Below, piece after piece: positions 5,301 to 60,178 of a DNA stretch of 64,000 nucleotides. The notes beneath the pieces are model-generated. The model did not search any database. It was given only the letters and a program-made list of their open reading frames with translations, and had not been told where the DNA came from. Every line of letters begins with the position of its first letter. Positions within the stretch are counted from its first letter, which is position 1. The translations under genes were made by a program, and so were the position numbers. The DNA comes from a virus, in IMG/VR virus record IMGVR_UViG_3300021964_008599, positions 1-64,000 of that record; one strand, given 5' to 3'.

Positions 5301-7392
5301 CACAACTATCAATTCTAAATTTAAGTCTGTCAGAATTATTAGTCCCCGAACCACTAAACACAGTTGTTAAAATATGTGTATTACCATCAACACCACCACC
5401 AGTGGCACTACCAAATGCCGTTCTAATGTCATATGTACCACCACTCTGTCTTATAAAGACTTCGTCTAATCCTGTATTACCGTCTTCACCACCTTGTATG
5501 TATTGACCTGTCGATGAAGGACTTAATGATTTTGCAACAACAATAATAGTCTGACCTGTAACCGATTGTAAATCAGTTAGAGGATTAACACTCAGACCGT
5601 CAGTGGTACCATTAAAGTATACAGCACCTAAACCATTCTGAACATTTGACCACCATTCAGGTGCAGGTCCACTACCACCACCTATTGGGTTAGCATTATG
5701 AGCATTAGCAGATGAATCTTCCCATTGAGTAAACGTGTCCCCACTTGTCGGTGTTGGTGTAAAGTAAGATGATAAATCACCTTGATAGTAAATTTCAAGT
5801 GTCGGGTCATTGATAGGTATTGGCGGTGTCGATGAAGGTGTAGGTGTGATTGTTACCGATGGAGTAATTGAAACACTTGGAGTAACTGAAGAAGTAGGTG
5901 TAATAGAATTAGTCGGTGTAATAGTTACTGAAGATGTGGGAGTAATAGACACACTAGGAGTTATTGAACTAGTTGGAGTTATCGTAACTGAAGGAGTAAT
6001 TGATGGTGTAGGTGTTACTGAACTCGTAGGGGTAATAGAAGTGGTTGGCGTTATCGTAACTGAAGGAGTAATAGAACTAGTTGGTGTTATTGTTACTGAA
6101 GGTGTTACTGAAGGAGTAGGTGTAATAGAACTAGTTGGAGTTATCGTAACTGAAGGAGTAATTGATGGTGTAGGTGTAATAGAAATAGTTGGTGTGTTAG
6201 TTGGGGTTGGTGTTGGTTGTGGTGGTGCTGGAGTTGGATTACAAATACAATTACCATTTGTGTATGCACCACCTCCACAACTTGGGTTTGTATTAACAAC
6301 ACTTAGTGCACAAATTGTGGCACTATCGTATATTCCGACAGTAATCTCCTGATTAAGACCATCGCAATCGACATATGTAAATGTTGTGCCTGTTGCACAA
6401 TCCATACCACCATATAAACTCCAAGTATCACAACATGGTGTTGTTGGTGTAACGGATGGTGTCGGTGTAGGCGTTACAGTTTGTGTTGGAGTTATACTAC
6501 TTGTCGGTGTAATTGATAATGTAGGTGTAATTGAACTCGTAGGTGTAATACTTGAAGTTGGCGTAATTGATGGTGTTGGTGTAGTTGACGGTGTTGTACT
6601 TACACTTACACCCGCGGTTACTGACGGAGTAGGTGTTACCGTAACACTTGGTGTAACAGACGGTGTTGAAGTAATTGTTATACTTGGAGTCGGCGTAATA
6701 GTTACTGAAGGTGTAATTGAAGAACTAGGTGTTATACTTGGTGATGGAGTAATTGAAACACTTGGAGTAACTGAAGAAGTAGGTGTAATAGTTACTGAAG
6801 GTGTAACTGAAGATGTGGGTGTAATAGACACACTAGGAGTTACTGATGAAGTGGGTGTTGGGGTAGAATATAGTGTGTTTGATGGTGTCGGTGTTATAGT
6901 GTTTGTGGGTGTAATAGATGGGGTTACAGTTACCGATGGAGTTACTGACGGAGTTACTGAAGGTATAGGGGTTTCTGAAGGTAAAATTACATCACTATTA
7001 CCTCTATTTGGTCTACAACATAAATCAGGGATACTTATCGAATCTCTAACGTTTATAAATAATTTTTTTCTTAATGGTAATGTAATTTCTCCTTGTTCGT
7101 TAGAAATTTTAAACTCAGCGATATAACGACCAGGATTACGGGTTTCATGAGATGTTAATTGATAATAAACATAATACTCAACTTCAGGACTATCACCTGT
7201 AGCCTCTTTTACCATAGTTCTTGCTGCTTTATTTACAACATAGTACCTATTGGTTTCCTCATTCCACATACTAAAAGTAATAGTCGAGGTGCTCGTTAAG
7301 TTATCAAACTCACGAAAATCAACTCTTCCATCTTTTACTACCTGTACCTTTATAATTGGTAGTGTACTATTTTTCCTTATAAAAAACTCCAT
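2323..7392 (-). CDS. Giant Thr/Pro/Ser-repeat fibre protein with LamG-like domains
   Basis: A 1689-residue protein. Approximate domains: adaptor 1-118 (paralogous to 1473-1826); T-P-T/S-(I/V) repeats; a Cys-rich module 317-386 (starts [13 protein letters not shown]); more repeats; a LamG/concanavalin-like domain 527-769; repeats; a second LamG-like domain 879-1114 (starts [16 protein letters not shown]); a third globular part ~1154-1300; repeats; and a C-terminal globular domain ~1362-1667 before a last repeat tail. LamG folds bind glycans, so I infer a receptor-binding or surface-adhesion fibre whose rigid linkers space the binding modules. The repeats read [12 protein letters not shown] and similar. 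No chaperone or protease motif was found. The gene overlaps its upstream neighbour by 1 base. Confidence 0.75.
5800..6990 (-). repeat. Degenerate short tandem repeats coding for T-P-T/S-I/V linkers
   Basis: Two dense blocks (about 5815-6225 and 6435-6985) of roughly 12-24 base units such as GTNACTGAAGG(A/T)GTNAT on the plus strand encode the Thr/Pro/Ser linkers of the giant fibre gene. Shorter blocks lie near 3315-3480, 3940-4050, 4765-4935 and 5030-5080. The repetition and in-frame periodicity make copy-number change by recombination likely. Confidence 0.8.
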
Positions 7393-9464
7393 TACGTAAT
7401 TATATCAAAATTAGGGTTACAATCAGGTTCTGAAATATTAAAACCAAAATCACAAGTTATTTCATTGGATACAAAATCAAAGTTACATGCAGCCTCTTCA
7501 ATATTAAAGTTAAAGAAACAACCCAATAAACATGGGTAACAATTTGAACACCAAAAATCATATAAATCAAATTTACCTTTTAGGATTCTTGCATTGTGTT
7601 GTATCTGTGGTGTACTTAAAGGTTCGGTATACATCCTAAATTGAGATATACCACCCATGAATGTCCCTCCAAAATTTGGTTCCAATAAAATATCGGTAGT
7701 TAATCCTGAAAGTGAAGTTCCTGATAAAACCTCATTCGGCATTGATTCAGGGTCTTGAATATATGGACCTTCAGTTGCACTACAACCACTAAACATTAAA
7801 CTTTCTCTAAGACCTTGTGTTCCTCCACCCCAACTAACATTAAAAGGGACCCCTAACTGCTTTTCTTTTTGAGTGTTTAACTCACGAGGTATAATTTCTT
7901 CAAAGTCTTCAATAACCATAAAGAGATAACCATTAACATATAATTTTAACAATCCTTTTCTCTTATCTCTTTCTCTTAACCATTTACGGTTAAGTTCGGT
8001 AATGTTTGTTAATTTTTCCTTTGTAGAACCTGGATGTGTTTGTGGTGGCATAATTAGATTCGGTGAAGCACCATTAATTGATGACGGATATAACAGTTCT
8101 CGTATATCACCTAACCCACCCCAATTAATTAAATCACAATCTTCAAGGGTCTCATATCTTTCAAAAACTGCTGATATGGTTACCCACCTTTCTTCTGTGT
8201 TTGCTGTTAAACACACTAAACTATCATAACCACAATCGCCATATATACCTCTTACTGAACATATTTCATTCACACAATACCCTGACGAGTATGTTAATCC
8301 TGTGGTACCACAACTACCCGTTGTAACACAATCACCTGTTAATTTTATGTATTTAACACAAAGGTGTGGATTTTTAGGGTCACCACTTAACCTAATCGCC
8401 ATCGCATTTGAAAACACATCTTTACCTGGGTCTACAGGTGGATTGGTAACTTTACTGTTGTAACTATTACAATTACCAATATTATGTTGAACTGTTGTAG
8501 CTGTTGTAGGAAATACATTAAAACAATTTGAATTGGTTACTCCTGTGTCTGAACATGCACAAGTTTTAATACAATTAGTTAAACCTGATGTCACTCTATC
8601 ATAAGTCCAACCTGTTACTTCACCAATCACATCAATACCAAAATCACATTTAAATGTGTTAATACTTTGTACATCACCTGATGCGGGATGGTAATACTTA
8701 TTTTCAGCCCTCGCACCAAAGAAAAAGAACATACCTGAATTATCAGGATATACATCATTCAAATAAACCTCAGAAGGTTGAATTTCATACTCTTCCCTTT
8801 GTCTAGGTTTTATGACAGTTTCCATGGTCCATCCTTTATTCACTCTTTCAGGAAAAACTTCATAATCGTACCCATATAATTTGTAGAACCCTTGATAGAA
8901 TCCTCCGTACAATTCGTTATAGTAACCTACATTGTCATCATTTTTTGAAACAATATTGTATATCGTTTTTGAATTCCCTGAAAACCTATGGTTAGGGTAA
9001 TCGGCATATGACGTAACTGGATGAAATTTCATTCTCCTATCGTAGTAGTGAGGGTTAAATTTTTCAAAGTCATTAATACCCATAGTAAATGTAATGGATT
9101 CACCCGTCATTTTGTTGTATAAACCGTTGTCAGTAGCGGTAAGACCTATATCACATAATGTAGTTGCCGTATAACAACTTAAGTCGTCATTATTTGGGTT
9201 ATAATAATTTTTTGATACTAAGGTGTTACCAGTGTAATTGACATTCCATAATAAATCTAATTTTTGATTAGATAAGTAAGAATTTAAGTCGACATTAACA
9301 GGTAATCTGTTACCGTCATTAACCGCAATAATATTTGTTGAGAATACAACTTCTTCATCATAGTCTCTTTCATCTGACGCTAATGTAAGGTCAAAATAAC
9401 TACTATAATCTAGCTTAATGTCGTATCTGTTAAAATAATAATTATTGATATTCTGACTCGGCAT
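7392..9464 (-). CDS. Large virion structural protein, probably tail or fibre associated
   Basis: A 690-residue protein, 1-base overlap with the giant fibre gene. It is rich in Tyr, Asn and Gly, as are beta-structured phage tail proteins. A segment around residues 220-245 ([17 protein letters not shown]) and a segment near 600-640 ([20 protein letters not shown]) look like the first and last strands of a LamG-type sandwich. The C-terminus (640-690) carries repeated C-x-F/D-F patterns. A late-promoter-like TATTTATC lies 13 bases before the ATG. Role inferred from content and from the adjacent fibre gene; no specific family recognised. Confidence 0.55.
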
Positions 9465-9477
9465 ACTTGTTTTTATA

Positions 9478-9485
9478 GATAAATA
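9478..9485 (-). promoter_or_regulatory. Late-promoter-like box TATTTATC
   Basis: On the minus strand TATTTATC is followed by TATAAAAACAAGT and the ATG at 9464. It is back to back with a plus-strand copy at 9498-9505, giving a divergent late promoter pair. Confidence 0.55.
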
Positions 9486-9497
9486 CTTTGTTTGCAG

Positions 9498-9505
9498 TAT
9501 TTATA
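9498..9505 (+). promoter_or_regulatory. Late-promoter-like box TATTTATA
   Basis: Plus-strand TATTTATA followed by GTAAAAAAGAATCT and the ATG at 9520. Same motif and spacing (14 bases) as the minus-strand copies. Confidence 0.6.
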
Positions 9506-9519
9506 GTAAAAAAGAATCT

Positions 9520-10272
9520 ATGAAGTCATATCTTTATAAAACAGAAGAGGGTGCAAAGAACGCAACAAAAGAGTTGGGTTGTAAAGGTTTTCACAAACAC
9601 AAAAGGAAAACTTTTATGCCCTGTGATTCACATGAAGTATTTTTGAAAAAAACAAAAAAAGAAACACCTGAAGGTGAGTTGGATGAACTAATCGACTACG
9701 ATGGTACAATGTTAAACTCTAAAGTTCCTATTTTGGACCCTAAAGTAACTGCTAAGGGTGACGAGACTATGGATAAAACAGTGGCCATGACTCGTATCAC
9801 TCAAGACCCACTTATGAGAGGTTATCGAGTATATTATGGAGAAGGTGTTGAACCTAAGTTTATTTCTGAAGAAGATATGGAAGACGCTTTTGGATTTGAA
9901 GAAACAAAGTATATGGATGCCGAAGAAACTATCGAATACTTTATGGACCAATTAGGGTTTGAAGAAATCGATGCCGAAGGTAGAGCAGAAGAAATGGGTA
10001 AGGACCCTGAATTAGATGAAACATCACCCTACAAAAAGAAAAAGAATTTTGTCGGTAAGTTAAGGTTAACAGAAAAAGGTAGAGAACTTAGTAAAGAACA
10101 AATATTAAAAATGGCTGAAGATTCTTTAGTATTGAAGTCAGACGATAAAGATTTAAAAACTGAAAAAGATGTTTCACCTATTTTACAAAGAAACATTAAA
10201 GCATTAAAAAAATTGGCGGTTATGGACGGTGTGTCCACAAACGAATTAATTAAAATGTTAAAAAATGAATAA
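9520..10272 (+). CDS. Conserved phage protein with GCxGxH...MPCxxH motif
   Basis: A 250-residue protein of unknown function. The N-terminus has ELGCKGFHKHKRKTFMPCDSH, a Cys/His pattern (C21, H25, H27, C35, H38, approximate) that recurs in marine T4-like phage proteins and could bind a metal. The rest is strongly acidic with a Lys-rich C-terminal helix. It follows a late-promoter-like box and overlaps the next gene by 8 bases, so it begins a late operon of small genes. A capsid-associated role is possible but not shown. Confidence 0.5.
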   Translation: MKSYLYKTEEGAKNATKELGCKGFHKHKRKTFMPCDSHEVFLKKTKKETPEGELDELIDYDGTMLNSKVPILDPKVTAKGDETMDKTVAMTRITQDPLMRGYRVYYGEGVEPKFISEEDMEDAFGFEETKYMDAEETIEYFMDQLGFEEIDAEGRAEEMGKDPELDETSPYKKKKNFVGKLRLTEKGRELSKEQILKMAEDSLVLKSDDKDLKTEKDVSPILQRNIKALKKLAVMDGVSTNELIKMLKNE

Positions 10273-10729
10273 AGACCTTTACGATAAAAAAGTAAAATTA
10301 CCTGAATCATTAAAAAACCATTTATCAAAAAGTTTTGAAATGGTTGAAGCTGACAGTAATGTTGAGGGTTACAATCGTAATAAAGAATTACGTGAAAAAG
10401 GTATTATGACTTATCAACAGTTAAAAAGAGTTAAAAATTGGTTTGATAGTTATGATGGTAATAAAGAAGATACACCCTTTATTTTAAATGGGGGTGATAG
10501 AATGCAAAAATGGTGTGGTCACGTATTAAACCATTGGAGAGATTCTTTAGAAAGTGGTAAGAAAGTAAAAATGGATACAGGTATGGATAACCAATACATC
10601 GATAACCATACAAAAGATGGTATTGTTGTTAATCCAGGTGATAAACACGAAAAAGGTATTAACAAATACGACACAGCCGTAACGGAACAAATTAAACAAA
10701 TAAACTCAATAATGAAAACATTACTATAA
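10265..10729 (+). CDS. Conserved hypothetical phage protein
   Basis: A 154-residue, Lys/Asp-rich soluble protein. Features: KLPESLKNHLSKSF near the start, and ending with an alpha-helical segment (TAVTEQIKQINSIMKTLL). No known catalytic motif. It overlaps the genes on both sides by 8 and 1 bases, so translation is probably coupled. Function unknown. Confidence 0.45.
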   Translation: MNKDLYDKKVKLPESLKNHLSKSFEMVEADSNVEGYNRNKELREKGIMTYQQLKRVKNWFDSYDGNKEDTPFILNGGDRMQKWCGHVLNHWRDSLESGKKVKMDTGMDNQYIDNHTKDGIVVNPGDKHEKGINKYDTAVTEQIKQINSIMKTLL

Positions 10730-13962: not shown

Positions 13963-14562
13963 ATGTTTAACAAGTTTAAAAATTTAAAAGATAGTTTTTC
14001 ACAATTAAGTGAACTACAAGAGAGTTTAAAAAATATGGATTCTACTGACCCTCAATCATTTTTGAATTCAATGGGAATTGATTATGAAGAATTGGAGAAA
14101 GGGTTTAATTCAGAATATTATAAAACACCTGAAATTGAATATGTTTATAAATCTGTAAATCCTGAACCTAAGTACCACTATGGTAGTGATTCAGGTTTTG
14201 ATTTAAGAGCAAATGAAAAGGTAACATTAAAACCTTTTGAACGTGCAATGGTACCCACAGGGTTACACATTAACGTACCCACAAGACACGAAGTACAAGT
14301 TAGACCCAAAAGTGGGTTAGCGTTTAAAAAAGGTCTTACAGTCCTTAATACACCAGGAACTGTCGATGAAGGATATACAGGTGAGATTAAAGTCATCTTA
14401 ATAAACCTAAGTCAAGAAACTCAGGTAATTGAATTTGGTGATAAGATAGCACAAGCGGTTATTTGTCCTGTAGTACAAGGAAGAGATGTTATTCTCAAAA
14501 GGGTACAAGAAATAAAAGATAAAGACCGAAATGAAAATGGATTTGGTTCAACAGGAAACTAA
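13963..14562 (+). CDS. dut: dUTPase with N-terminal extension
   Basis: Hydrolyses dUTP to dUMP, keeping uracil out of phage DNA and feeding dTMP synthesis. The trimeric dUTPase motifs are all visible: DSGFDLRA, PKSGLAF, GLTVLNTPGTVDEGYTGEI, and the C-terminal P-loop-like NENGFGSTG. An extra ~60-residue N-terminal segment (FNKFKNLKDSFSQLSELQES...) is helical and is not part of the enzyme core; usual dUTPases are ~140-150 residues, this one is 199. The extension may bind a partner. The C-terminus overlaps the next gene by 32 bases. Confidence 0.9.
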   Translation: MFNKFKNLKDSFSQLSELQESLKNMDSTDPQSFLNSMGIDYEELEKGFNSEYYKTPEIEYVYKSVNPEPKYHYGSDSGFDLRANEKVTLKPFERAMVPTGLHINVPTRHEVQVRPKSGLAFKKGLTVLNTPGTVDEGYTGEIKVILINLSQETQVIEFGDKIAQAVICPVVQGRDVILKRVQEIKDKDRNENGFGSTGN

Positions 14563-14941
14563 TACAAGTCCTGTTTTACCAAACGGGAGAAAAAATTACT
14601 TAATAGACATTGACGGTACAATAACTGATGATGTACCAAATGAAGAACCTAATAGAATGGAAAGTTGTCTTCCGTACACGGGGTCCGTTGACATTATAAA
14701 CGGATGGTATGATGAAGGTCACATAATTACTTTCTTTACCTCAAGGACTGAAGAACACCGTGAGGTGACAGAAAATTGGTTCAAAAAACATGGTTTTAAA
14801 TACCATAATTTATTAATGAATAAACCACGTGGTGGTAACTATCATTGGATAGATAATCATATTGTTAGAGGAACTCGTTATAATGGTAAATGGACTCCTT
14901 TAACAGAAAAAGAAACCACGATACAAGTATTTGACGATTAA
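14531..14941 (+). CDS. HAD-family phosphatase
   Basis: A 136-residue minimal HAD hydrolase. Motif I is DIDGTITDD (nucleophile and acid/base Asp both present), motif II FFTSRT, and a downstream WIDNH segment may supply motif IV. The size and sequence resemble capsule or sugar-phosphate phosphatases rather than polynucleotide phosphatases. With neighbouring glycosyltransferases on the downstream side, a sugar-phosphate substrate is likely. The start overlaps the dUTPase gene; a later start would remove only the non-conserved leader. Confidence 0.75.
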   Translation: MKMDLVQQETNTSPVLPNGRKNYLIDIDGTITDDVPNEEPNRMESCLPYTGSVDIINGWYDEGHIITFFTSRTEEHREVTENWFKKHGFKYHNLLMNKPRGGNYHWIDNHIVRGTRYNGKWTPLTEKETTIQVFDD

Positions 14942-16329
14942 TGATTACAATAGGATATAGCACAAAGAAAATAGACCCTGAATTCAGAGATTATATTGAA
15001 AAGTCTTGCGGATTACGTAACGTTGAAGTAATCCCATTCGAGAATCCAGGTACCCACTCATTAACTGAAGCCTACAACATTATCTTAGAACAGGCAAGCA
15101 ATGATATTGTTGTTTTATGTCATGATGACATTTATTTTGAAAAAGGTAATTGGGGTAATAAAGTTATTAAACATTTTAAAAGAAATCCTGATTACGGCAT
15201 TATAGGGGTTGCTGGTTCCAAATATATGCCAAAAACAGGTATGTGGTGGGAAGTTCAAACTGAAATGATTGGGATTGTAAATCATGAACATGAAGGTAAA
15301 AAATGGACATCAAAATACAGTGAGTCTAAAGGTAATAAATTAGATGATACAGTTATTGTTGATGGTCTTTTTATGGTGGTTAACAAACCAAATCTAAAAA
15401 CAAATTTTAATGAGGAAGTAAAAGGATTTCACTTTTATGAGGTAGATTTTTGTTTTAGAAACTTTTTAGAGGGTGTTAAAGTAGGTGTTTTTTATGACGT
15501 TAGGATTACTCATAAATCTATCGGTATGACTAATGAGCAATGGGAAAAGAACAGACAGCAATTTGCGGAAACGTATAAAGAAAATCTACCCATCTTATTA
15601 CCAACAACATTTACAAAAAAAGATGTTAAAAAGAATGAGCCTTTAGTAACATTAGCAATGCCAATTTACAATTACGCAAAAAGATTAAACCCAACCCTAC
15701 ATTCAGTTTTTAATCAAGATTATACCAATTTTGAAATCACGTTGGTAAATGATGGTTCTGATGATGAATATTGTTTAATGAAGTTGGATTCTTTAAAAGA
15801 CCATGATTCAATTCGAGTTATACATAAAGAAAATACAGGAGTATCAGATACTCGTAACCGAGCAGTTAAAGAAGGTAAAGGGGAATATGTTTTACCTCTT
15901 GATGCTGATGATATGATATTACCAGGTTATCTTAAAACTGCAGTAAACATAATTAAAAACAATCCAAAGATTAGTCCAGTATATTGTGATACAATACATA
16001 TCGGGGAAATGCAAGGATTGGAGAAAAGACCTGAGTGGTCAAAAGAAAGACTTTTATCGGGACCTTTTATAGTTAATAGTTCAATGTATTCTCGTGAAGC
16101 ATACGAGTCCACAGAGGGTTATAATACGGAAATGAAAGGGTGGGTTGATTATGACCTTTGGGTTCAAATGATGGATGCGGGTTATGAAGGTAAAAGAATA
16201 CCAAAAGGATTATTTGTTTATTTTCATCACGAAAGTGAAGGTAAAGGTTCGGTATCTACGAGCGCCAGAAACAATATGCAAGAGTTACATAAAACTATTT
16301 TAGATAGACATGAAAATAGAAGCGTTTGA
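14941..16329 (+). CDS. Two-domain glycosyltransferase (GT-A fold, GT2 type)
   Basis: A 462-residue protein with two GT-A modules. N-terminal ~1-215: VVLCHDDIYFE, the D-x-D region of a Glyco_tranf_2_5-like domain, and GFHFYEVDFCFRN. C-terminal ~230-455: VTLAMPIYNYAKRL, ITLVNDGSDDE, YVLPLDADDMILPGYL and WVDYDLWVQM, a standard GT2 domain. Bifunctional glycosyltransferases of this type usually extend polysaccharides or add two sugars in turn. The 3' end overlaps the next gene by 20 bases. Confidence 0.8.
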   Translation: MITIGYSTKKIDPEFRDYIEKSCGLRNVEVIPFENPGTHSLTEAYNIILEQASNDIVVLCHDDIYFEKGNWGNKVIKHFKRNPDYGIIGVAGSKYMPKTGMWWEVQTEMIGIVNHEHEGKKWTSKYSESKGNKLDDTVIVDGLFMVVNKPNLKTNFNEEVKGFHFYEVDFCFRNFLEGVKVGVFYDVRITHKSIGMTNEQWEKNRQQFAETYKENLPILLPTTFTKKDVKKNEPLVTLAMPIYNYAKRLNPTLHSVFNQDYTNFEITLVNDGSDDEYCLMKLDSLKDHDSIRVIHKENTGVSDTRNRAVKEGKGEYVLPLDADDMILPGYLKTAVNIIKNNPKISPVYCDTIHIGEMQGLEKRPEWSKERLLSGPFIVNSSMYSREAYESTEGYNTEMKGWVDYDLWVQMMDAGYEGKRIPKGLFVYFHHESEGKGSVSTSARNNMQELHKTILDRHENRSV

Positions 16330-17131
16330 TGAATTTGGATATATACTTTGGTACTACGCACCAATATCTTACGACGCATTTCTTAAAGGAAAGTTAATTT
16401 CCACTAAAAGTAAAATTGGGACTAAACCTGTATTTTATTTCTCTGAAAATCATACAGAAGATGAGATACATTACGACCCACCCAGACTTAAAAAAACATT
16501 ACAACCTATAGAACATTTCACATCTTGTTATAAAATAGAAGGTCCTTTATTTATCAAAGATAATTGGACACCACCACCATACAAAAAAATATTTAAAAAT
16601 GATGTTTATGTGTATGATAAACCCATACTAACCATTAATAATAAAAACACAAAAGAATGGGGGCAACATCCTCATAATTATTTTAATTCTGATTTTTTAG
16701 ATAAGATTTTTACCGAATTAAAAAGTAAGTATCAAATAATTTATATTAGACCACCAGATAAATCTGAAAATTTTAAATTACAAAAAGACACTAATCAAAT
16801 AAGTTTGGATATTGGTGATAAAGAAATTTTAGCAAAACATCCTGAAGTTATAGATATTGAGACCTTACTACTAAAAAGTGATAAAGTATATAATGAGGTT
16901 CAGTTTATGATATTGTCAAATTCAGATTACCATATAACACCTGCAGGAGATGCGGTTGTTCCTTCTTATTTTGGTGGAGAAGTTTTAATTTATAACTGTC
17001 CTAATTGTAATTCGTCTAATAGAGGTGTATGGAAAACGGGTTCTTGGATGGAAAAATTATCAGGGTCCAAAATATATGGATTTAATAATTACGATAATTT
17101 ACTTAATTACGTTAAAACTAACTGGTTATAA
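16310..17131 (+). CDS. Hypothetical protein of the sugar region, glycosyltransferase-like
   Basis: A 273-residue protein with no motif I can name with certainty. It alternates hydrophobic strands (KPILTINNK, YQIIYIRPP, FMILSNSDYHITPAGDAVVPSY, EVLIYNCP), which suggests a Rossmann-like sugar-transferase domain; the NSDYHIT segment resembles the donor site of some fucosyl- or glycosyltransferases. A C-P-N-C pair occurs near residue 229. It is convergent with the minus-strand cassette, 1 base apart, without an obvious terminator. Confidence 0.45.
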   Translation: MKIEAFDEFGYILWYYAPISYDAFLKGKLISTKSKIGTKPVFYFSENHTEDEIHYDPPRLKKTLQPIEHFTSCYKIEGPLFIKDNWTPPPYKKIFKNDVYVYDKPILTINNKNTKEWGQHPHNYFNSDFLDKIFTELKSKYQIIYIRPPDKSENFKLQKDTNQISLDIGDKEILAKHPEVIDIETLLLKSDKVYNEVQFMILSNSDYHITPAGDAVVPSYFGGEVLIYNCPNCNSSNRGVWKTGSWMEKLSGSKIYGFNNYDNLLNYVKTNWL

Positions 17132-17132
17132 T

Positions 17133-17843
17133 TTATCTTAGATGTAGTGACATATCATAATAATTAGGTTTACATTGTCCTAACCACCATTGCATTTCAG
17201 AAAAACTACTCATATTTGTACCATAAATGTCCGTAGATAAACTACCTAAGTATTGGTCTATTAATATGTCTTGCATACCTTCTACAGTAGTAAAATCTCC
17301 AAATTTTGTTCTTTTAGGTGTGGTATAAACATCGTACTTTTCTTTAATTAAATTTGTCGTTTCAGTGTCATCACAGGTTAATAAAATTTTACCTTCAATT
17401 TTATCCATTACCTTAAAAAGGTTATTTATTTTAAAATGTCTACCCCATGAGTTATATTCCGAAGGAAAACTTCTAAAAGTTCTAACGCTAACTGCACTAT
17501 ATTCACCTAACTTTTCTTTCTCTTCTTTAATTTTATTTGAAATATAATCGATAGGTTCTAAAGTTTTGATAACTTCAATATATCTTTTTTTAAGGTTAAT
17601 AGGTAACTTATCTTTACTTCCTTCATTATGTGTATTCATTTTAGGATGAATAAATTTGCAGTCAGATACACTACTTATGGCATTACCATTATAAATATTT
17701 TTATATAAATCATTAAACTTACATCCAACACCACTACTTGTTGTTATATCCCACATTAAATTAATATTTCCATATTCTACGATTGAAGATATTATACACT
17801 TCATTCGATTGGAAATTCCACCGTATGGTCTGCAATTAATCAT
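17133..17843 (-). CDS. Fucosyltransferase-like protein
   Basis: A 236-residue protein starting with RPYGGISNRMKCIISSIVEY, which resembles the G-G-(L/I)-(G/S)-NR(L/M) motif at the N-terminus of NodZ/O-fucosyltransferase-like enzymes. A later YSAVSVRTFRSFPS could be the conserved Arg motif that contacts the GDP sugar. It is the distal gene of the minus-strand cassette and overlaps the GT-D gene by 4 bases. The phage also has a GDP-sugar epimerase, so a GDP-sugar donor is reasonable. Fold call by eye. Confidence 0.45.
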   Translation of the reverse strand: MINCRPYGGISNRMKCIISSIVEYGNINLMWDITTSSGVGCKFNDLYKNIYNGNAISSVSDCKFIHPKMNTHNEGSKDKLPINLKKRYIEVIKTLEPIDYISNKIKEEKEKLGEYSAVSVRTFRSFPSEYNSWGRHFKINNLFKVMDKIEGKILLTCDDTETTNLIKEKYDVYTTPKRTKFGDFTTVEGMQDILIDQYLGSLSTDIYGTNMSSFSEMQWWLGQCKPNYYDMSLHLR

Positions 17844-18523
17844 ATTTCTAATTGTTTATAATCTCTATGGTAAGACCTACTTATTACCCCAATAAAGGGG
17901 TCCCATATTGAACCAAAATCAATCATGGTACATCTATCTCCAATGACATCATATAACTCATCTACGATAACATTTGTTGCCATAGAAGATGATAATCCAA
18001 ATACAACATCATCATATTTTTCTGTCATTTTTATCATATCATTTTTAATTCTATCTTTATCTAAAAAACAATTTTTAGATGGTATACTAACAAAGTCAGT
18101 GTATTTAATATCTATTTTTTTTAGGTTATCATTTGACACAATAATAAAGTTTCTTTTTTCTAATGCTTCAACTAATACCTTTAATTGTCCGTTTAATGCG
18201 GCATCTTCCCATATACCAGCATTAACCCAATTTATATTTATATTATTCTTTGATAAAAAAGGTAATAATCTATTTAAAATATTACGAATCTGACCGTGGT
18301 CTATATTCCAAATAGCTTTATAATAACCTTTATTGTTTTTTAGCGCAGTATTAAGACCATTTTTTAATTCAGGAAAATATTTGTGATGGTCACAATTTTG
18401 ACCTTTTAACCCCATAGCACAGAACCACTCACCATCACCCCATCGAGTAAAAGAAAAATTCTCATTATTACGAATTTTTTTTATATAATATTCTATTGGA
18501 TTATTTTTAATATCAATATTCAT
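17840..18523 (-). CDS. GT-D type glycosyltransferase (DUF1792-like)
   Basis: A 227-residue protein. The segment FSFTRWGDGEW (about residues 23-33) matches the R-(F/W)-GDGE motif of GT-D enzymes, where the D-x-E residues bind the metal and donor. VFGLSSSMATNVIVDEL and MIDFGSIWDP fit the C-terminal part of that fold. Members add hexoses in adhesin glycosylation and polysaccharide synthesis. Very AT-rich, like the rest of this cassette; overlaps neighbours by 4 bases on each side. Confidence 0.65.
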   Translation of the reverse strand: MNIDIKNNPIEYYIKKIRNNENFSFTRWGDGEWFCAMGLKGQNCDHHKYFPELKNGLNTALKNNKGYYKAIWNIDHGQIRNILNRLLPFLSKNNININWVNAGIWEDAALNGQLKVLVEALEKRNFIIVSNDNLKKIDIKYTDFVSIPSKNCFLDKDRIKNDMIKMTEKYDDVVFGLSSSMATNVIVDELYDVIGDRCTMIDFGSIWDPFIGVISRSYHRDYKQLEI

Positions 18524-18969
18524 ATGTCTAATTTCATTTTAATTGTATTGTCAACATTGTCATGAGGTTTTACACTTATTATAGTAAAATCTAATTTATT
18601 ATAGATATTAATTGCCCGTTTATTAGAACTCAAAACCTCTAAAAAAATTGTTTTAATATTAAACTCTTCTTTTAAATGTTTCATAAACTTTAAATATGAT
18701 GGTTTAGCGTAACCTAATCCCCTATACTTTTTATGTATATCCATTCCAATATATAAGGTATTATTATTCCAGTTAGAGGTTCTAAAATACCCTATATCTT
18801 CATTTAATATTTCAACTATAAAAAATGGAGACTCCAAACTTTTAAACCACTTGACATTATCTTCTAATGTGTAATTATTTTTATCGTGTAAAAACATACT
18901 ACTATGACTTCTAACCTCATTAAAAAAAGGTAAGTCAGATTCAACCATTCTTCGTATTTTTATGTCCAT
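18520..18969 (-). CDS. GNAT acetyltransferase
   Basis: A 149-residue GNAT protein: MDIKIRRMVESDLPFFNEVR start, IGYFRTSNW and TLYIGMDIHKKYRGLGYAKPSY, the latter holding the acetyl-CoA loop (R-G-L-G-Y-A, a variant of Q/R-x-x-G-x-G/A), then IFLEVLSSNKRAINIYNKLDF. It is two genes downstream of a sugar aminotransferase, so N-acetylation of an amino sugar is a likely job. It overlaps the upstream gene by 29 bases. Confidence 0.8.
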   Translation of the reverse strand: MDIKIRRMVESDLPFFNEVRSHSSMFLHDKNNYTLEDNVKWFKSLESPFFIVEILNEDIGYFRTSNWNNNTLYIGMDIHKKYRGLGYAKPSYLKFMKHLKEEFNIKTIFLEVLSSNKRAINIYNKLDFTIISVKPHDNVDNTIKMKLDI

Positions 18970-19435
18970 ATTTTTCTAAAATTTGTTTTGCCGCATTTTT
19001 TTGAGTAGAGACGTTAGTGGCAAGAATACTATTGGGTAATTTTTTAAATTCATTTAATGCGTCTAAATTTGTGATTTCCTTTTCCCACGCAACGGGTATA
19101 AGATTATATTCACCTAACCTCTCTACTCTTTTATTAAAATTATCAAGAACTGTTTTATTATCTTTATGGTGAATAAAATGAAAATTAACATCATCCAATC
19201 TCATAATTGGATATGTTTTTGAAATTGAGTCGTGTTTTAGATATCTACCATTTTTTAAATCTTCATCAATAAACAATGGTTGTTGAGAAATATAATGGTC
19301 AAATTTCTTACACACTTTAATAAAATCACTATCGTCTAAAATTAAATGCCATATAAAAGGATTATTATATTTTATTTCCTTAAGGTGATACAACCAACCT
19401 GAAACACAGCTATTACCCAAAAAAGTATCATTCAT
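18941..19435 (-). CDS. DUF1919-like exopolysaccharide biosynthesis protein
   Basis: A 164-residue protein. The pattern GNSCVSGWLYHLKEIKYNNP, DDSDFIKVCKKFDHY and YPIMRLDDVNFHFIHHKD follows the DUF1919 family, found in capsule and exopolysaccharide loci of many bacteria. Its reaction is not established. It lies between the aminotransferase and the acetyltransferase within one minus-strand cassette, 1 base from the aminotransferase gene. Confidence 0.6.
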   Translation of the reverse strand: MNDTFLGNSCVSGWLYHLKEIKYNNPFIWHLILDDSDFIKVCKKFDHYISQQPLFIDEDLKNGRYLKHDSISKTYPIMRLDDVNFHFIHHKDNKTVLDNFNKRVERLGEYNLIPVAWEKEITNLDALNEFKKLPNSILATNVSTQKNAAKQILEKYGHKNTKNG

Positions 19436-19436
19436 T

Positions 19437-20618
19437 TTACCAACCTTTTTTAATACAATCTACAATATACTCTCTTTGTTCTTTAGTAACCCACCATCCT
19501 ACAGGTATTGAAACAATTTTTCCTATTGTTTTATCTAATGATGGTAATGCGGTTTTAAATTCTTGAACACATGTATGTTTATCATTTCTTTCATGTACTT
19601 GTGATACAGCAATACCACATTCATCCATCCACTTATAAAAACCATCTCTATTATCAACCAACATAGAATAAATCCAAAACGCCGAATCAAAATCTTTTTC
19701 TCTTTTTAATAAAGTAACACCTTTTACGTTAACCAAATTTTCATCATAAAATTTTGCGTTTTCTTTATGTTTACCAACAATTTCTTTAAAATGTTTTAAA
19801 TTTTCTATACCAACTGTTGCACATACATCATTCATGTGAAATTTAAAACCCCATTCTTCAACGTCTGCCTCACATCTAAAATCTTTTCGGTCACCATCTC
19901 TGTCAATACCATACCATCTTAATAATTTCCCTCTTTGGTGAAGTTCTTTATGTGGTGATATAAGTATTCCACCATCTATTGATGTAATATGTTTAATTGC
20001 TTGTAATGAGAACATTGTTAAATTACCATGACTACCAATTTTTTTACCTTTATATTCAGAACCAAAAGAATGTGCACCATCTTCAATAACCGCAGGTTTA
20101 AACCCGAAACGTAAATAAGCATCTTGTTGAATTTTTTTAATCTTATCTAAATCATTTGGATAACCACCCCAATGGACTAACATAATCACTTTTGTTTTTG
20201 AGGTGATTTTTCTTGCCAAATCATCCAAATCCATATTTAATGTGGTTGGGTCAATGTCCACCCATTTTATTTTTAATCCGTTGGCTAAAATTGGCCAATT
20301 AGATGCGGTACATGTCATTGGAGTTGCAAGTACTTCATCTCCATCTTCTAAACCTGGCCAAAAAGAGTTAAATGATGCCACTCCATCAAAAACTTTTGAG
20401 CTCTGATTTGGTTTTTTCAATAGATGTAAAGCTAAATGTAAACCCGAAGTTCCTGCGTTTAGGGTTGATACATAATCATGTTTGAAGAAATTTTTTAAAT
20501 TACTTTCAAACTCTTCAACTTTAGGTCCCTGACCAATGTACCCACTATTTAAAACTTTAGTTACCTCTTCTGAGGCTGTTGGTGACATAAATACTCTGAA
20601 TAAATCTATTTTTTTCAT
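19437..20618 (-). CDS. DegT/DnrJ/EryC1/StrS sugar aminotransferase
   Basis: PLP enzyme that converts a keto NDP-sugar to an amino sugar. Seen: GYIGQGPKVEEFE substrate-entry motif, NAGTSGLHLAL (PLP phosphate binding), VIEDGAHSFGSEYKGKKIG (Asp to the PLP ring nitrogen), and SLQAIKHITSIDGG, where the Lys would form the Schiff base. Length 393 is normal for the family. It leads the minus-strand cassette; with the GNAT gene it would make an N-acetylated amino sugar for glycan synthesis. Confidence 0.9.
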   Translation of the reverse strand: MKKIDLFRVFMSPTASEEVTKVLNSGYIGQGPKVEEFESNLKNFFKHDYVSTLNAGTSGLHLALHLLKKPNQSSKVFDGVASFNSFWPGLEDGDEVLATPMTCTASNWPILANGLKIKWVDIDPTTLNMDLDDLARKITSKTKVIMLVHWGGYPNDLDKIKKIQQDAYLRFGFKPAVIEDGAHSFGSEYKGKKIGSHGNLTMFSLQAIKHITSIDGGILISPHKELHQRGKLLRWYGIDRDGDRKDFRCEADVEEWGFKFHMNDVCATVGIENLKHFKEIVGKHKENAKFYDENLVNVKGVTLLKREKDFDSAFWIYSMLVDNRDGFYKWMDECGIAVSQVHERNDKHTCVQEFKTALPSLDKTIGKIVSIPVGWWVTKEQREYIVDCIKKGW

Positions 20619-20699: not shown

Positions 20700-21518
20700 A
20701 TGGTAGTAGGAATTATTGGAAATGGTTTTGTTGGTGAATCTCAAGCATTCGCATTTTCACCAACTAATGAAATAAGAATATATGATGTTGACCCACTAAG
20801 AGCAACACATACAAAAGAAGAGACACATGAGTCTGACTTTGTTTTTGTCTGTGTACCAACACCAATGGATATGGGTGGAAAACAAGACTTATCGTATATT
20901 GAAAGAGTTTTTGAGGACGCTAAAGAAGGTCCGATTTATATTATTAAATCTACGGTATTACCTGGTACCACCGAAATGTTACAAAGACAATATCCTCACC
21001 TTAACATTATATTTTCACCTGAGTTTTTAACTGAAAGAACTGCAAAGTTGGATATGTTAACACAAGCAAGAGTAATCTTTGGTGGTGATAAGTTATTAAC
21101 TGAGAAAGTCGAAGAAATGTTTTCAAAACGATTTATGAATAGACATTTCATACATACCGACTCGATAACTGCTGAGTTTATCAAATACATGAATAATACC
21201 TTCTTCGCCACTAAGGTTTCTTTGATGAATGAATACTACAGACTTGCACAATTAGTTGGTGTTAATTGGGATGATGCATTATACGGATTTGCTTCTGATG
21301 GTCGAGTTGGTGACTCACATTTACACGTACCAGGTCCTGACGGTAAAGTTGGTTTTGGAGGGACGTGCTTCCCAAAAGATATAAACGCACTTATGAACAT
21401 GGCAAAAGATGTGGGTGTAAATATGAATGTTTTGGAATCCGCTTGGAAAACTAATCTTGAAGTTAGACCTGAACAAGATTGGAATAAATTAAAAGGTAGG
21501 GCAATATCGGACAAATGA
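20700..21518 (+). CDS. UDP-glucose/GDP-mannose dehydrogenase family protein, short form
   Basis: A 272-residue NAD-dependent nucleotide-sugar dehydrogenase. Rossmann start VVGIIGNGFVG, FVCVPTPMD, SPEFLTERTAK, EFIKYMNNTFFATK (K162), and the catalytic FGGTCFPKD (C223). The C-terminal NDP-sugar-binding domain (~100 residues in usual ~390-450-residue enzymes) is absent; the protein stops after LKGRAISDK and the next gene starts 4 bases earlier. It may act with the second dehydrogenase, be substrate-altered, or be inactive. Confidence 0.85.
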   Translation: MVVGIIGNGFVGESQAFAFSPTNEIRIYDVDPLRATHTKEETHESDFVFVCVPTPMDMGGKQDLSYIERVFEDAKEGPIYIIKSTVLPGTTEMLQRQYPHLNIIFSPEFLTERTAKLDMLTQARVIFGGDKLLTEKVEEMFSKRFMNRHFIHTDSITAEFIKYMNNTFFATKVSLMNEYYRLAQLVGVNWDDALYGFASDGRVGDSHLHVPGPDGKVGFGGTCFPKDINALMNMAKDVGVNMNVLESAWKTNLEVRPEQDWNKLKGRAISDK

Positions 21519-22675
21519 AAAAGATAGGTATTATTGGAATTGGTAAACTAGGTTTATCATTTGCTCTATTAGTTGAACAAAAAGGGTTCGAAGTATGGGG
21601 TTCAGATATTAGTGAAACCTATATACAATCTTTACGTGATAAATCTTTTAAGAGTAGTGAACCTTATATTGAAGACTACTTAACAAACTCAAAAAACTTT
21701 CATGTAACCACCAGTAACATTGATGTTATTGAAAATTGTGATATCATTTTCACTTTTGTACCGACACCATCATTAGAGTCAGGTGAATACGACCACCAAT
21801 ATATTGAAAGTGTTATTGATGATTTTGACGCAATGTATCAAACAGGATTTGATTTATCAAGTAAAATGTTTGTTGTTAGTTGTACCACTAACCCTGGTTA
21901 CACTGATACAGTAGCAGAAAGATTCTCACAATACGGTATAGACGTTTGTTACAACCCTGAGTTTATCGCCCAAGGTAATATTGTGAACGGATTAAAATAT
22001 GCTGATATGGTATTGATTGGTACATCCTCAATGGAGGAAGTTGATAGAATTAAGGATATCTATACTGAGATAATGGATGAACCTAATTTTAACATTCTTT
22101 CTAATACTGCTGCAGAAATTACAAAAATATCAGTAAACTGTTACTTAACAACCAAAATTTCATTTGCCAACATGATTGGTGAAATATGTCACAACACAGG
22201 TATCGGTGATGAAGTTGATAACGTATTATCATCAATCGGTAGTGACACCCGTATCGGTAAAAAATACCTTAATTATGGTTTTGGTTTTGGAGGACCTTGT
22301 TTACCACGAGATAATAGAGCGTTGGGTGTACATGCCGAAAAAGTAGGTCTTGAGGTAAATCTACCCTTAGAAGTTGACAAATTTAACATTGAACATCACA
22401 AATATTTGGTAAATAAATTGGTGTCTGAAAATCCAAACAGAGATACTAATTTTATCTTTGACTCAGTAACCTATAAAAAAGGTACCGATTTATTAACAGA
22501 GTCACAACAATTAAATCTACTACTATCATTATTAGCTGAAGGATATACTTGTACTGTAGTTGATAATGACAATATTAGACATATTATAGAGAAGGACCTT
22601 AAAAATTTATATAACGATAAGTTTAATTTTATTCAAAATGATACTATTATTGAAGGTATAAGAATAAAATTATGA
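21515..22675 (+). CDS. Nucleotide-sugar dehydrogenase (UDP-glucose/GDP-mannose dehydrogenase family)
   Basis: A 386-residue protein with Rossmann motif KIGIIGIGKLGLS, FTFVPTPS, NPEFIAQG, EITKISVNCYLTTKISFAN (Lys of the active site) and FGFGGPCLPRD (C262). The C-terminal domain, missing from its upstream neighbour, is present here. The pair shares family but differs in sequence, so it is not a recent tandem duplication. Oxidises the C6 hydroxyl of an NDP-hexose to a uronate; the exact substrate is not visible. 4-base overlaps on both sides suggest coupled translation. Confidence 0.85.
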   Translation: MKKIGIIGIGKLGLSFALLVEQKGFEVWGSDISETYIQSLRDKSFKSSEPYIEDYLTNSKNFHVTTSNIDVIENCDIIFTFVPTPSLESGEYDHQYIESVIDDFDAMYQTGFDLSSKMFVVSCTTNPGYTDTVAERFSQYGIDVCYNPEFIAQGNIVNGLKYADMVLIGTSSMEEVDRIKDIYTEIMDEPNFNILSNTAAEITKISVNCYLTTKISFANMIGEICHNTGIGDEVDNVLSSIGSDTRIGKKYLNYGFGFGGPCLPRDNRALGVHAEKVGLEVNLPLEVDKFNIEHHKYLVNKLVSENPNRDTNFIFDSVTYKKGTDLLTESQQLNLLLSLLAEGYTCTVVDNDNIRHIIEKDLKNLYNDKFNFIQNDTIIEGIRIKL

Positions 22676-23760
22676 AAAAGGTAGTAGTACTTGGAGGAGG
22701 AGGATTTATCGGTGGACATCTATCAAAAAGATTAAAAGATAGTGGTCACCACGTAACCATATGTGATATTAAAAATCACGAATATTGGAATCATAAAGAC
22801 ATATGTAATAAGTTCATCAAAGGGGACCTAAGAGACCCTAAAATCGTTTCTGATGTTATCTCAGAAGGTGTTGATGAAGTATATCAGTTAGCTGCAGATA
22901 TGGGTGGTGCAGGTTATATCTTCACTGGTGATAACGACGCCAACGTAATGCACAACTCGGCACTTATTAACCTTAATGTTGTTCACGAATGTACCAAAAA
23001 GAAGGTGGGTAAAGTATTTTACTCATCATCCGCATGTATGTATCCTGAACACAATCAATTAGACCCTGATAATCCAAACTGTAAAGAGTCCTCAGCATAT
23101 CCCGCAAATCCTGATTCTGAATACGGTTGGGAAAAACTATTTTCTGAAAGATTATTCTTGGCGTTTAACCGCAACTACGGATTGGACGTAAGAATTGCTC
23201 GCTTCCATAACATCTTTGGACCTATGGGTACATGGACAGGTGGTAAAGAAAAAGCACCAGCGGCTATGTGTAGAAAAGTCGCGGAATCACAAGATGAAAT
23301 TGAAGTGTGGGGTGACGGTCAACAGACTCGTTCGTTTCTTTATGTTGATGAGTGTGTCGAAGCGGTTTTAAGATTAATGGAATCAGACTTTTTAGGACCT
23401 GTTAATATTGGTTCAGAAGAAATGATTACCATAAATGGACTTGCACAGATGGCTATTGATATCTCAGGAAAAACAATTAAAATTAAGAATATAGAAGGTC
23501 AAGATTTTATCGACAAATACGGTTTTACTTGTCCTGTAGGAGTCAGAGGTAGAAACTCTGACAATAAACTTTATAAAGACAAAATAGGTTGGGAAGTATC
23601 TCAACCATTACGAGTAGGTATGGAAAAAACATATAATTGGATTAATGAACAAGTAGAAGAAAGTAAAAAGACTTATATCTATGAAAGTCCTGATGGTGGT
23701 AAAACAGTATACAGGAGAGGTTTTGGAGAACCTCACGAAACACGTGAATTAATTAAATAA
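22672..23760 (+). CDS. GDP-mannose 3,5-epimerase-like protein
   Basis: Short-chain dehydrogenase/epimerase of 362 residues closely matching GDP-mannose 3,5-epimerase (GME), which turns GDP-D-mannose into GDP-L-galactose. Seen: VLGGGGFIGGHL Rossmann motif, LAADMGGAGYI, SSSACMYPE with the catalytic Cys (C122), YGWEK (Y151, K155), GTWTGGKEKAPAAMCRK with the second catalytic residue (K194), GDGQQTRSFLYVDE and VGVRGRNSDN. All are as in plant GME. The last ~25 residues (from YIYESPDGG) are an added tail. It ends a three-gene nucleotide-sugar operon. Confidence 0.88.
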   Translation: MKKVVVLGGGGFIGGHLSKRLKDSGHHVTICDIKNHEYWNHKDICNKFIKGDLRDPKIVSDVISEGVDEVYQLAADMGGAGYIFTGDNDANVMHNSALINLNVVHECTKKKVGKVFYSSSACMYPEHNQLDPDNPNCKESSAYPANPDSEYGWEKLFSERLFLAFNRNYGLDVRIARFHNIFGPMGTWTGGKEKAPAAMCRKVAESQDEIEVWGDGQQTRSFLYVDECVEAVLRLMESDFLGPVNIGSEEMITINGLAQMAIDISGKTIKIKNIEGQDFIDKYGFTCPVGVRGRNSDNKLYKDKIGWEVSQPLRVGMEKTYNWINEQVEESKKTYIYESPDGGKTVYRRGFGEPHETRELIK

Positions 23761-23777
23761 TTTCAATGAAACTATAA

Positions 23778-24491
23778 ATGTCAAATAGAAATAGAAAAAA
23801 CGAGGACAACTCAAAGATGACTAAAAAAGAATTAATTAACGCTATTATTGGTAAAAAACCAAGAAAAAAATTCTTATCTGAAAGTCAAAAAGAATATTAC
23901 GATGTTCTAACTAATAGTGAAATAACAGTTTGTACAGGACCTGCAGGTGTTGGTAAATCATATATCGCAATGAAGGCCGCTGTTGAACTACTAATGGATA
24001 ATAACAACTCTTACGAGAAAATTATAATTGTAAGACCCGCAGTTGAGGCTGAGGAAAAGTTAGGTTCATTACCAGGTAACTTAGAGGAAAAATTAGACCC
24101 ATATATTTTTCCATCGTATTACCTTTTAAATAAAATTATAGGGAAGGAAGCTAGAGAAAAACTAAAAGATAATGATATTATTGAGGTTTTTGCACTGGCA
24201 TATATGAGAGGTATGAATATTGATAACTCAATATTAATTTTTGAAGAAGCTCAAAATTCAACACCTTCACAAATGAAACTCTTATTAACAAGAATTGGGT
24301 TCAATAGTAAGTTTTTCATTTCAGGAGATATTGAACAAACCGACCGTTACAAAGATAAGACACAATCAGGTCTATATGATGCGGTAAATAGGTTTCAAGA
24401 TATGGATGGTGTTGGAACGTATTCTTTTGAAACTAAAGATGTTATCCGTAACCCATTAATTACTAAAATATTAAAAAGATACGAAGTATGA
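23778..24491 (+). CDS. PhoH-like ATPase
   Basis: A 237-residue P-loop protein. Walker A is GPAGVGKS (54-61); IIVRPAVEAEEKLGSLPG and ILIFEEAQNSTPSQMK (Walker B with the PhoH EAQN motif) and FISGDIEQTDR follow. PhoH proteins are common in phages and may act as RNA/DNA helicases or in phosphate stress; their phage role is not settled. A basic N-terminal tail of ~30 residues precedes the core. It overlaps the HAD-like gene by 4 bases. Confidence 0.9.
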   Translation: MSNRNRKNEDNSKMTKKELINAIIGKKPRKKFLSESQKEYYDVLTNSEITVCTGPAGVGKSYIAMKAAVELLMDNNNSYEKIIIVRPAVEAEEKLGSLPGNLEEKLDPYIFPSYYLLNKIIGKEAREKLKDNDIIEVFALAYMRGMNIDNSILIFEEAQNSTPSQMKLLLTRIGFNSKFFISGDIEQTDRYKDKTQSGLYDAVNRFQDMDGVGTYSFETKDVIRNPLITKILKRYEV

Positions 24492-59035: not shown

Positions 59036-60178
59036 CTATTTCCCTAATTCGTAATTACCCTGATTAGTTTTTTTGGTTGCTCTTCCACCTCCAGTGGCCT
59101 TTCCATAGTTAACACCGTTTATGTGACCATCCAAACCTCTACCTATCGGTAAATAAGTTTTTGGTTTAACTTGACTTAAAAACGATTCAGACTTTTCAGG
59201 GTAATTTTCATCCAAATATATTTTAATTCGTTTTTTATACTCATCTACGATAAATTTAGCAATATCATTATTAAATTTTTCATATATTTTTTGATAGTAA
59301 TTTTCATTATAGTTACCTGATTTTAAATCTGAATTTTTTAATTTTGGTAACTTAGATAAATACGATTGAATCGATTGTGTATTAATCTCTCCTAATTTTT
59401 TTCTATCGTAATCTTTGTCTGCAAAATTTTTGTCTAACGATTCAATAAATTTCACAATACTACCTGCTATTTGTGTACTATTTTGACCTATCAATTTTTT
59501 GTACATATCATCCTTACTCTTAAAACCAGGATAGTTAGATTTAGAATTAGTAATAATGAAAGATGCAATATATCTAGCAATACCGTTAAATGTGGATTGA
59601 GTATTGTTAATTTTAGATGGGTTCCAACTAACCATACGACTTTCTCTTTTTTCACTACTCATACTTATAATCACCCTGTTTGGCATTTTTTCAGTTGTAT
59701 CTGTTTTCATCGCCCTTGCCAATGCTAATAATCCATTTTGACAACCAATTATTCTTGTGACTTTATAGATAATATCACCGTCTTTATAATATATGTCAGC
59801 ATTAATACTTCCAGATTTATTTAGTTTATAAATTTTACTCTTACCCGCACGTTTATCTTTAGTATTTACAGGTGTAACATAAAATTGAATAAAATCACCT
59901 AATTTAGCATCTGAAGGAGTTGATAATTCAGTAAATAAAGATAAATCTTTTGTTTCTACAAATGTTTTTCTTGCTTTCGGCCATCCTCTTAATTCCCAAA
60001 AATTTTTGTAATTACTTTCATTGGCTTTTAATCCGTATTGTGTTAGTACCTTTGGATTAACTATTCTTTCAGGGCTAGTACTACCTTGGATGGTTTCAAA
60101 CCCACTTTGTTCATTTAAAATATTTCTCACAATTTTCTGAACATCAGATTCAGTCAAACGTATAATTTTCTTTGCCAT
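59036..60178 (-). CDS. Hypothetical virion-type protein with targeting-like N-terminus
   Basis: A 380-residue protein starting MAKKIIRLTESDVQKIVRN followed by ILNEQSG. This leader is nearly the same as that of the gene at 60816 although the rest differs. The body is Lys/Asn/Tyr-rich with no recognised domain. It has a late box 16 bases upstream, inside repeat copy B. Probably packaged or virion associated by analogy with T4 internal proteins. Confidence 0.55.
   Translation of the reverse strand: MAKKIIRLTESDVQKIVRNILNEQSGFETIQGSTSPERIVNPKVLTQYGLKANESNYKNFWELRGWPKARKTFVETKDLSLFTELSTPSDAKLGDFIQFYVTPVNTKDKRAGKSKIYKLNKSGSINADIYYKDGDIIYKVTRIIGCQNGLLALARAMKTDTTEKMPNRVIISMSSEKRESRMVSWNPSKINNTQSTFNGIARYIASFIITNSKSNYPGFKSKDDMYKKLIGQNSTQIAGSIVKFIESLDKNFADKDYDRKKLGEINTQSIQSYLSKLPKLKNSDLKSGNYNENYYQKIYEKFNNDIAKFIVDEYKKRIKIYLDENYPEKSESFLSQVKPKTYLPIGRGLDGHINGVNYGKATGGGRATKKTNQGNYELGK

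Follow-up and report, generated by a model that had tools for sequence, protein, structure and literature searches.

The cassette and its genes

In a 64,000-nucleotide stretch of viral DNA (here called the window; positions 1 to 64,000 of IMG/VR record IMGVR_UViG_3300021964_008599), five intact open reading frames, packed tightly or overlapping, occupy positions 17133-20618 of the minus strand and encode proteins of 236, 227, 149, 164 and 393 amino acids. This group of putative glycan genes, the cassette, converges on a plus-strand glycosyltransferase gene at 16310-17131 with a gap of 1 nucleotide, and diverges from a UDP-glucose dehydrogenase gene at 20700 with a gap of 81 nucleotides. An initial annotation of the sequence had described five minus-strand genes opposed to their flanks and named them fucosyltransferase-like, GT-D, GNAT, DUF1919 and DegT; the layout and all five assignments were confirmed, three by profile and two (FUT and GT-D) by predicted fold. 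The record is a fragment of 66,679 bases, and searches for absent genes covered this entire 66.7-kb sequence.

17133-17843, minus strand: FUT, a fucosyltransferase-like GT-B enzyme (NodZ/FUT8/POFUT clan fold), 236 amino acids, by predicted fold
17840-18523, minus strand: GT-D, a DUF1792-fold glycosyltransferase with an RWGDGEW motif, 227 amino acids, by predicted fold
18520-18969, minus strand: GNAT N-acetyltransferase, 149 amino acids (PF00583, 2.5e-11; PF13302, 5e-11)
18941-19435, minus strand: DUF1919 protein, directly downstream of DegT, 164 amino acids (PF08942, 3.4e-18)
19437-20618, minus strand: DegT/StrS sugar aminotransferase of the CalS13/AtmS13 subgroup, 393 amino acids (PF01041, 4.8e-71)

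An exchangeable island between dUTPase and phoH

By its sequence matches the window phage is probably a T4-like myophage with a flavobacterial host, because Flavobacterium phage immuto is among the best named matches of its terminase (27% identity) and encodes a DegT 60% identical to that of the window. It probably infects marine bacteria, with flavobacteria as likely hosts. Relatives were gathered via PhoH, which is independent of the cassette, and pooled with loci sampled by DegT, giving 25 distinct dUTPase-to-phoH intervals (individual loci carry L numbers). A near-identity DNA search of phage records returned zero matches.

Across these 25 intervals the DNA between dUTPase and phoH ranges from 0 to 11,305 bp and holds 87 gene clusters. 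The six-gene right flank had a mean Jaccard index of gene content of 0.97 and the island one of 0.08; the flank value is slightly inflated because the flank set includes PhoH itself, the sampling gene. At three empty sites dUTPase directly abuts phoH (L139 and L140, both 9415-10711; L147, 1763-3058). The glycan island fixed between dUTPase and phoH in this T4-like lineage is exchangeable, with the cassette as one of its modules, and the locus is a hypervariable, glycosyltransferase-rich block between conserved core genes, of the type found in T4-like marine phages. The initial annotation had proposed a moron, and the synteny comparison supports a patchy, horizontally mobile cassette: flanks are conserved, the island varies, and the cassette is missing from part of the relatives. 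In the two phages with the nearest backbones, L083 and L084 (eight core genes compared, mean identity 86%), DegT, GT-D and FUT are absent.

The cassette genes, GNAT aside, also show purifying selection. With dN/dS estimated by NG86, values were approximately 0.065 for DegT, 0.15-0.21 for GT-D, 0.12-0.20 for FUT, 0.18 for DUF1919 and 0.14 for the neighbour at 16310-17131; for GNAT a single pair was compared, which was too diverged to interpret. Non-functional filler for headful packaging, an explanation raised for the lipopolysaccharide gene clusters of cyanophages (PMC3037559), is an extremely improbable account of these genes. Five of the six genes compared are under purifying selection (dN/dS about 0.06-0.21) and the frames are intact. 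Moreover, the GT-D frame overlaps the FUT start by 4 nucleotides, and this overlap, suggestive of translational coupling, recurs in relatives.

Composition and strand

The AT-richness of the cassette, also remarked on in the initial annotation, is confirmed, although the signal is uneven. At 0.284, its GC content lies below the window value of 0.333, making it the most AT-rich 3.5 kb present: none of 2,678 same-size positions that do not overlap the cassette was as low (minimum 0.293). At the gene level, Mann-Whitney tests gave p = 0.0009 for GC and 0.0018 for GC at third codon positions. Codon usage was shifted as well (Jensen-Shannon value 0.0187; highest null value 0.0125), although the cassette ranked only 7th among 49 five-gene blocks. 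The AT-rich block and the minus-strand block do not coincide, since DegT on its own is compositionally ordinary (GC 0.316, z -0.5) and the plus-strand neighbour at 16310-17131 is as AT-rich as the cassette (GC 0.281). Among relatives the contrast is small: in the 22 with non-empty islands, GC of the whole island is only 0.8 percentage points below that of the flanks (lower in 18 of 22; Wilcoxon p 0.002).

The opposite orientation did not prove to be diagnostic. In L024/L104, L002 and L003 the cassette genes run in the direction of the flanks, whereas the window, L007, L013, L018, L092, L095 and L096 have them on the minus strand, so the reversed strand is incidental. Inversion of the cassette as a functional switch was considered and rejected, as there are no clear flanking inverted repeats and relatives carry either orientation. 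Matched repeats that could mark an insertion were not found at the cassette edges, and no PADLOC match assigned the cassette to a defence system.

Origin and transfer of the cassette

The window DegT shares 93% identity with the L007 enzyme and 91% with the L002 enzyme, though the core genes of these phages are only 56-78% identical to those of the window. Because DegT identity is incongruent with backbone identity, the cassette looks to have been transferred from phage to phage. The initial annotation had instead favoured acquisition from the capsule or O-antigen locus of a bacterium. A recent capture of this kind would agree with the low GC and shifted codon usage of the cassette and with its absence from the nearest relatives, but the distribution of the DegT family speaks against it: members were found in 159 viral stretches and in 6 prokaryote contigs from 85k prokaryote genomes. 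The DegT tree groups the viral sequences in a single deep clade that has hardly any non-viral members and is moderately supported at its base; AtmS13 and an actinomycete sequence lie outside. FUT and GT-D have orthologues in further phages of this type, and the gene at 16310-17131 is equally AT-rich while lying on the same strand as the flanks. We consider a recent bacterial capture very unlikely.

Two of the six prokaryote contigs, L162, which shares the phage synteny, and L163, which is phage-like, sit in archaeal genomes (Woesearchaeota, Euryarchaeota); one, and probably both, look like mis-binned phage DNA. L164 and L165 appear chromosomal, with isoleucyl-tRNA-synthetase- and pilin-like reading frames (judged by eye).

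Predicted folds of the cassette enzymes

FUT and GT-D matched no Pfam family at E<=0.1, and sequence-profile searches with both against the PDB gave nothing; only the predicted folds gave their identity. The AlphaFold model of FUT has a predicted local distance difference test score (pLDDT) of 68, with low confidence for residues 1-69. Its best Foldseek match is FUT8 (5e-7), and VIA-align gave Z scores of 13.4 with NodZ, 13.2 with FUT8 and about 13 with POFUT, against at most 7.8 for unrelated chains. On the basis of this model FUT belongs to the NodZ/FUT8/POFUT clan, with a GT-B fold that includes the clan's C-terminal, GDP-binding half. It differs from these enzymes in being shorter, in its poorly modelled N-terminal part and in sequence (14-18% identity only). 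For GT-D the model is better (pLDDT 86) and matches the DUF1792 structures 4phr and 4pfx with a Z score of 17.9 (4phr: 204 residues, 3.1 Å), followed by TagA/TarA at about 10-10.6. The predicted structure thus has the GT-D fold while the sequence falls outside the curated Pfam DUF1792 profile, and the protein is expected to work like a GT-D enzyme.

The nearest solved relatives of the phage DegT are the actinomycete enzymes AtmS13 and CalS13 (4zwv and 4xau, ~1e-117; 4zas, 1e-104), to which it is 48% identical over nearly the full length. Other DegT types follow at 4e-34 or weaker, about 70 orders of magnitude behind. The C-terminal GWW signature is shared, whereas an insertion around residues 70-90 sets the phage enzyme apart. 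AtmS13 and CalS13 act in antibiotic aminopentose pathways.

Neighbouring genes and sugar chemistry

The remaining genes of the window island and its two boundaries are as follows.

13963-14562, plus strand: dUTPase-like gene, the left conserved island boundary, shared in relatives
14941-16329, plus strand: two-domain GT2 enzyme (PF13712 and PF00535), with partial matches in L002, L003 and L024
16310-17131, plus strand: probable glycosyltransferase with no family match, travelling with GT-D and FUT in several relatives
20700-21518, plus strand: short UDP-glucose/GDP-mannose dehydrogenase, 272 amino acids (PF00984/PF03721)
21515-22675, plus strand: second UDP-glucose dehydrogenase-like protein (TIGR03026 above cut-off)
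22672-23760, plus strand: GDP-mannose 3,5-epimerase, for GDP-L-galactose supply (2c59, E 3e-97)
23778-24491, plus strand: PhoH, the right conserved island boundary, shared in relatives

Additional glycosyltransferases flank the region on either side. Among relatives the N-terminal half of the GT2 enzyme is conserved and its C-terminal half is swapped; the short dehydrogenase keeps the GFGGTCFPKD motif and lacks the C-terminal UDP-binding domain. The epimerase slot adjoining phoH holds GDP-mannose 4,6-dehydratase (GMD) and GDP-fucose synthase in other relatives, e.g., L013. GMD occurs in 6 of the 25 islands and GDP-mannose 3,5-epimerase in 6, never together, a pattern that is not significant alone (about 0.15 by counting). 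The presence of GMD with GDP-fucose synthase, or of the epimerase, in some of the islands with FUT is suggestive of GDP-fucose use by this enzyme.

The gene that directly follows DegT varies. In 70 loci, counted by cluster representative, it is a GNAT in about half, and DUF1919, hexapeptide acyltransferase, formyltransferase and methyltransferase genes are among the others. As read from these gene neighbourhoods, this would look like an amino sugar with varied N-capping. The order DegT-DUF1919-GNAT recurs in L020, L022 and L039, which ties DUF1919 to the sugar made by DegT. In the pathway that we envisage, DegT would aminate a nucleotide 4-ketosugar supplied by the host or by unseen phage genes, and GNAT, perhaps with DUF1919, would cap the amino group. 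GT-D and FUT would then transfer sugars, possibly with GDP-L-galactose or GDP-L-fucose from the neighbouring module as a donor.

Target of the glycan

A hydropathy-based survey of the 22 non-empty islands found that none of 180 proteins has two or more predicted transmembrane segments; membrane flippases and membrane glucosyltransferases of the gtrABC type were absent from all of them. The lack of multi-transmembrane proteins disfavours GtrABC-type seroconversion and favours decoration of virion proteins in the cytoplasm, and since all island enzymes look soluble, assembly of the glycan in the cytoplasm is most likely. A candidate acceptor lies nearby.

2323-7392, minus strand: mucin-like Ser/Thr/Pro-repeat protein, putative glycan acceptor, 1689 amino acids, 30% serine plus threonine

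Globular parts of this protein are separated by some 700 residues of mucin-like repeats rich in TPS, and mucin-like proteins are encoded at the corresponding locus in 17 of 20 relatives, L148 being the weakest case. In L013, matching repeat codons are found elsewhere, away from this locus. These features suggest a glycosylated tail protein. Serine-rich repeat adhesins carry glycans that DUF1792 enzymes extend (PMC6291802); the phage GT-D resembles these enzymes in fold, in its soluble protein-glycan context and in the Ser/Thr-rich proteins nearby, and differs in having no Pfam-level match and no SecA2/Y2 export genes in view.

We favour, with moderate confidence, an exchangeable island module for amino-sugar synthesis and transfer that serves the cytoplasmic decoration of virion proteins. 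Virion proteins would carry the glycan, and the mucin-like tail protein encoded nearby may be one of them. Exchange of islands among phages is observed, and recombination at the conserved flanks would be its mechanism. The resulting distinct sugar coat of each phage may tune adsorption or shield the particle. A more elaborate version, by analogy to the glycosylation of bacterial serine-rich repeat adhesins, is a self-contained cytoplasmic O-glycosylation pathway in which conserved core glycosyltransferases would prime the mucin-like Ser/Thr/Pro tail protein and the plug-in dUTPase-phoH island would swap the terminal sugars and so exchange the coat. We put this forward tentatively, as a possibility that is more likely wrong than right.

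Several observations weigh against virion decoration by an amino-sugar module. Occurrence of the mucin-like protein does not follow that of the island: L139 and L140, with empty islands, encode it, and L013, L024 and L003 lack it at this locus. A ketosugar-forming enzyme was not found in the 66.7-kb record, in which the only PF01370 protein is the GDP-mannose 3,5-epimerase, so the amino-sugar product stays a prediction. The uronate decarboxylase that an aminopentose path would need to make the 4-keto-pentose was likewise not found in this record, a fragment, which does hold the dehydrogenases at 20700 and 21515; short-chain dehydrogenase/reductase proteins near DegT in other phages are ambiguous as uronate decarboxylases. 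The initial proposal that the cassette makes and attaches an N-acetylated amino sugar is therefore only partly upheld: the genes form a sensible set for amino-sugar formation and transfer, but the cassette alone cannot make the sugar. Promoter-like sites around the cassette occur at chance level, terminator-like sites (4 against 1.7 expected) show no clear excess, and a late-type motif was not found upstream of the cassette. Finally, the soluble glycosyltransferases could instead act on undecaprenyl-linked intermediates of the host.

Alteration of the host's O-antigen or capsule as surface glycan in the course of infection, which would block competing phages by superinfection exclusion, is how the glycosyltransferase-rich host recognition clusters of pelagimyophages have been read (PMC7029224), and the donor-sugar enzymes and capsule-type glycosyltransferases of the island would suit such a role. 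However, the 22 non-empty islands contain no flippase, polymerase, ligase or membrane glycosyltransferase, and only one multi-transmembrane protein was found near 92 DegT genes. The relatives also look like lytic T4-like phages, to which late changes in host lipopolysaccharide would bring limited benefit. We regard this role as rather unlikely. The initial annotation had left the choice open between a change in host glycans and decoration of the virion; decoration is the favoured part, and host O-antigen conversion is disfavoured by the lack of a membrane component in the islands examined.

DNA is another known substrate of phage glycosyltransferases (discussed in PMC12619734), and sugars attached to hypermodified bases could evade restriction. 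We give this option little credence for the present locus. Genes of the thymidylate synthase/hydroxymethylase family were not found in the window record or in relatives of 161.9 kb and 138.6 kb, and the folds of GT-D and FUT match glycosyltransferases that act on proteins and glycans. In a relative of 198.8 kb, the sole thymidylate synthase-family gene keeps ordinary thymidylate synthase motifs, which also argues against DNA glycosylation.

Other features of the window

About a dozen genes, including several structural ones, have the octamer TATTTATA on their own strand, 12-25 nucleotides 5' of the start codon (9498, 28094 and 32254 on the plus strand; 2301, 41102, 43033, 51880, 52993, 58745, 60202 and 62067 on the minus strand). 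This octamer is a candidate for a promoter or leader specific to the phage. It was rejected as a promoter of the cassette, since it precedes structural genes and not the cassette. The phage encodes a tmRNA at 62208-62601 with an unusual tag peptide, GETIAKLQAVGLIRTEEVTVA, and the proteins at 59036-60178 and 60816-62042 have a similar N-terminal stretch (M.KK.IRLTE.D...IV...).

Comparison with known glycan islands

Pelagimyophages carry a hypervariable host recognition cluster (PMC7029224) and cyanomyophages carry lipopolysaccharide gene clusters, one of which lies near phoH in P-SSM2 (PMC3037559). As in the window, these are T4-like marine phages in which a variable island, set amid conserved virion genes, holds glycan genes, including UDP-glucose dehydrogenase and glycosyltransferases. 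The locus described here is an island of this kind from a different phage lineage, and its boundaries and chemistry are better defined. It is set apart by its precise dUTPase/phoH bounds and empty sites, by its CalS13-type aminotransferase with varied N-capping enzymes, and by a single slot that serves the supply of either GDP-fucose or GDP-L-galactose.

If our reading is correct, the locus offers sharply bounded natural replicates, with the same flanks, dozens of sugar modules and empty sites, for probing the function of phage-encoded glycans in marine T4-like phages. It would also direct attention to relatives that have been isolated, the Flavobacterium immuto phages, and offer a concrete acceptor candidate.

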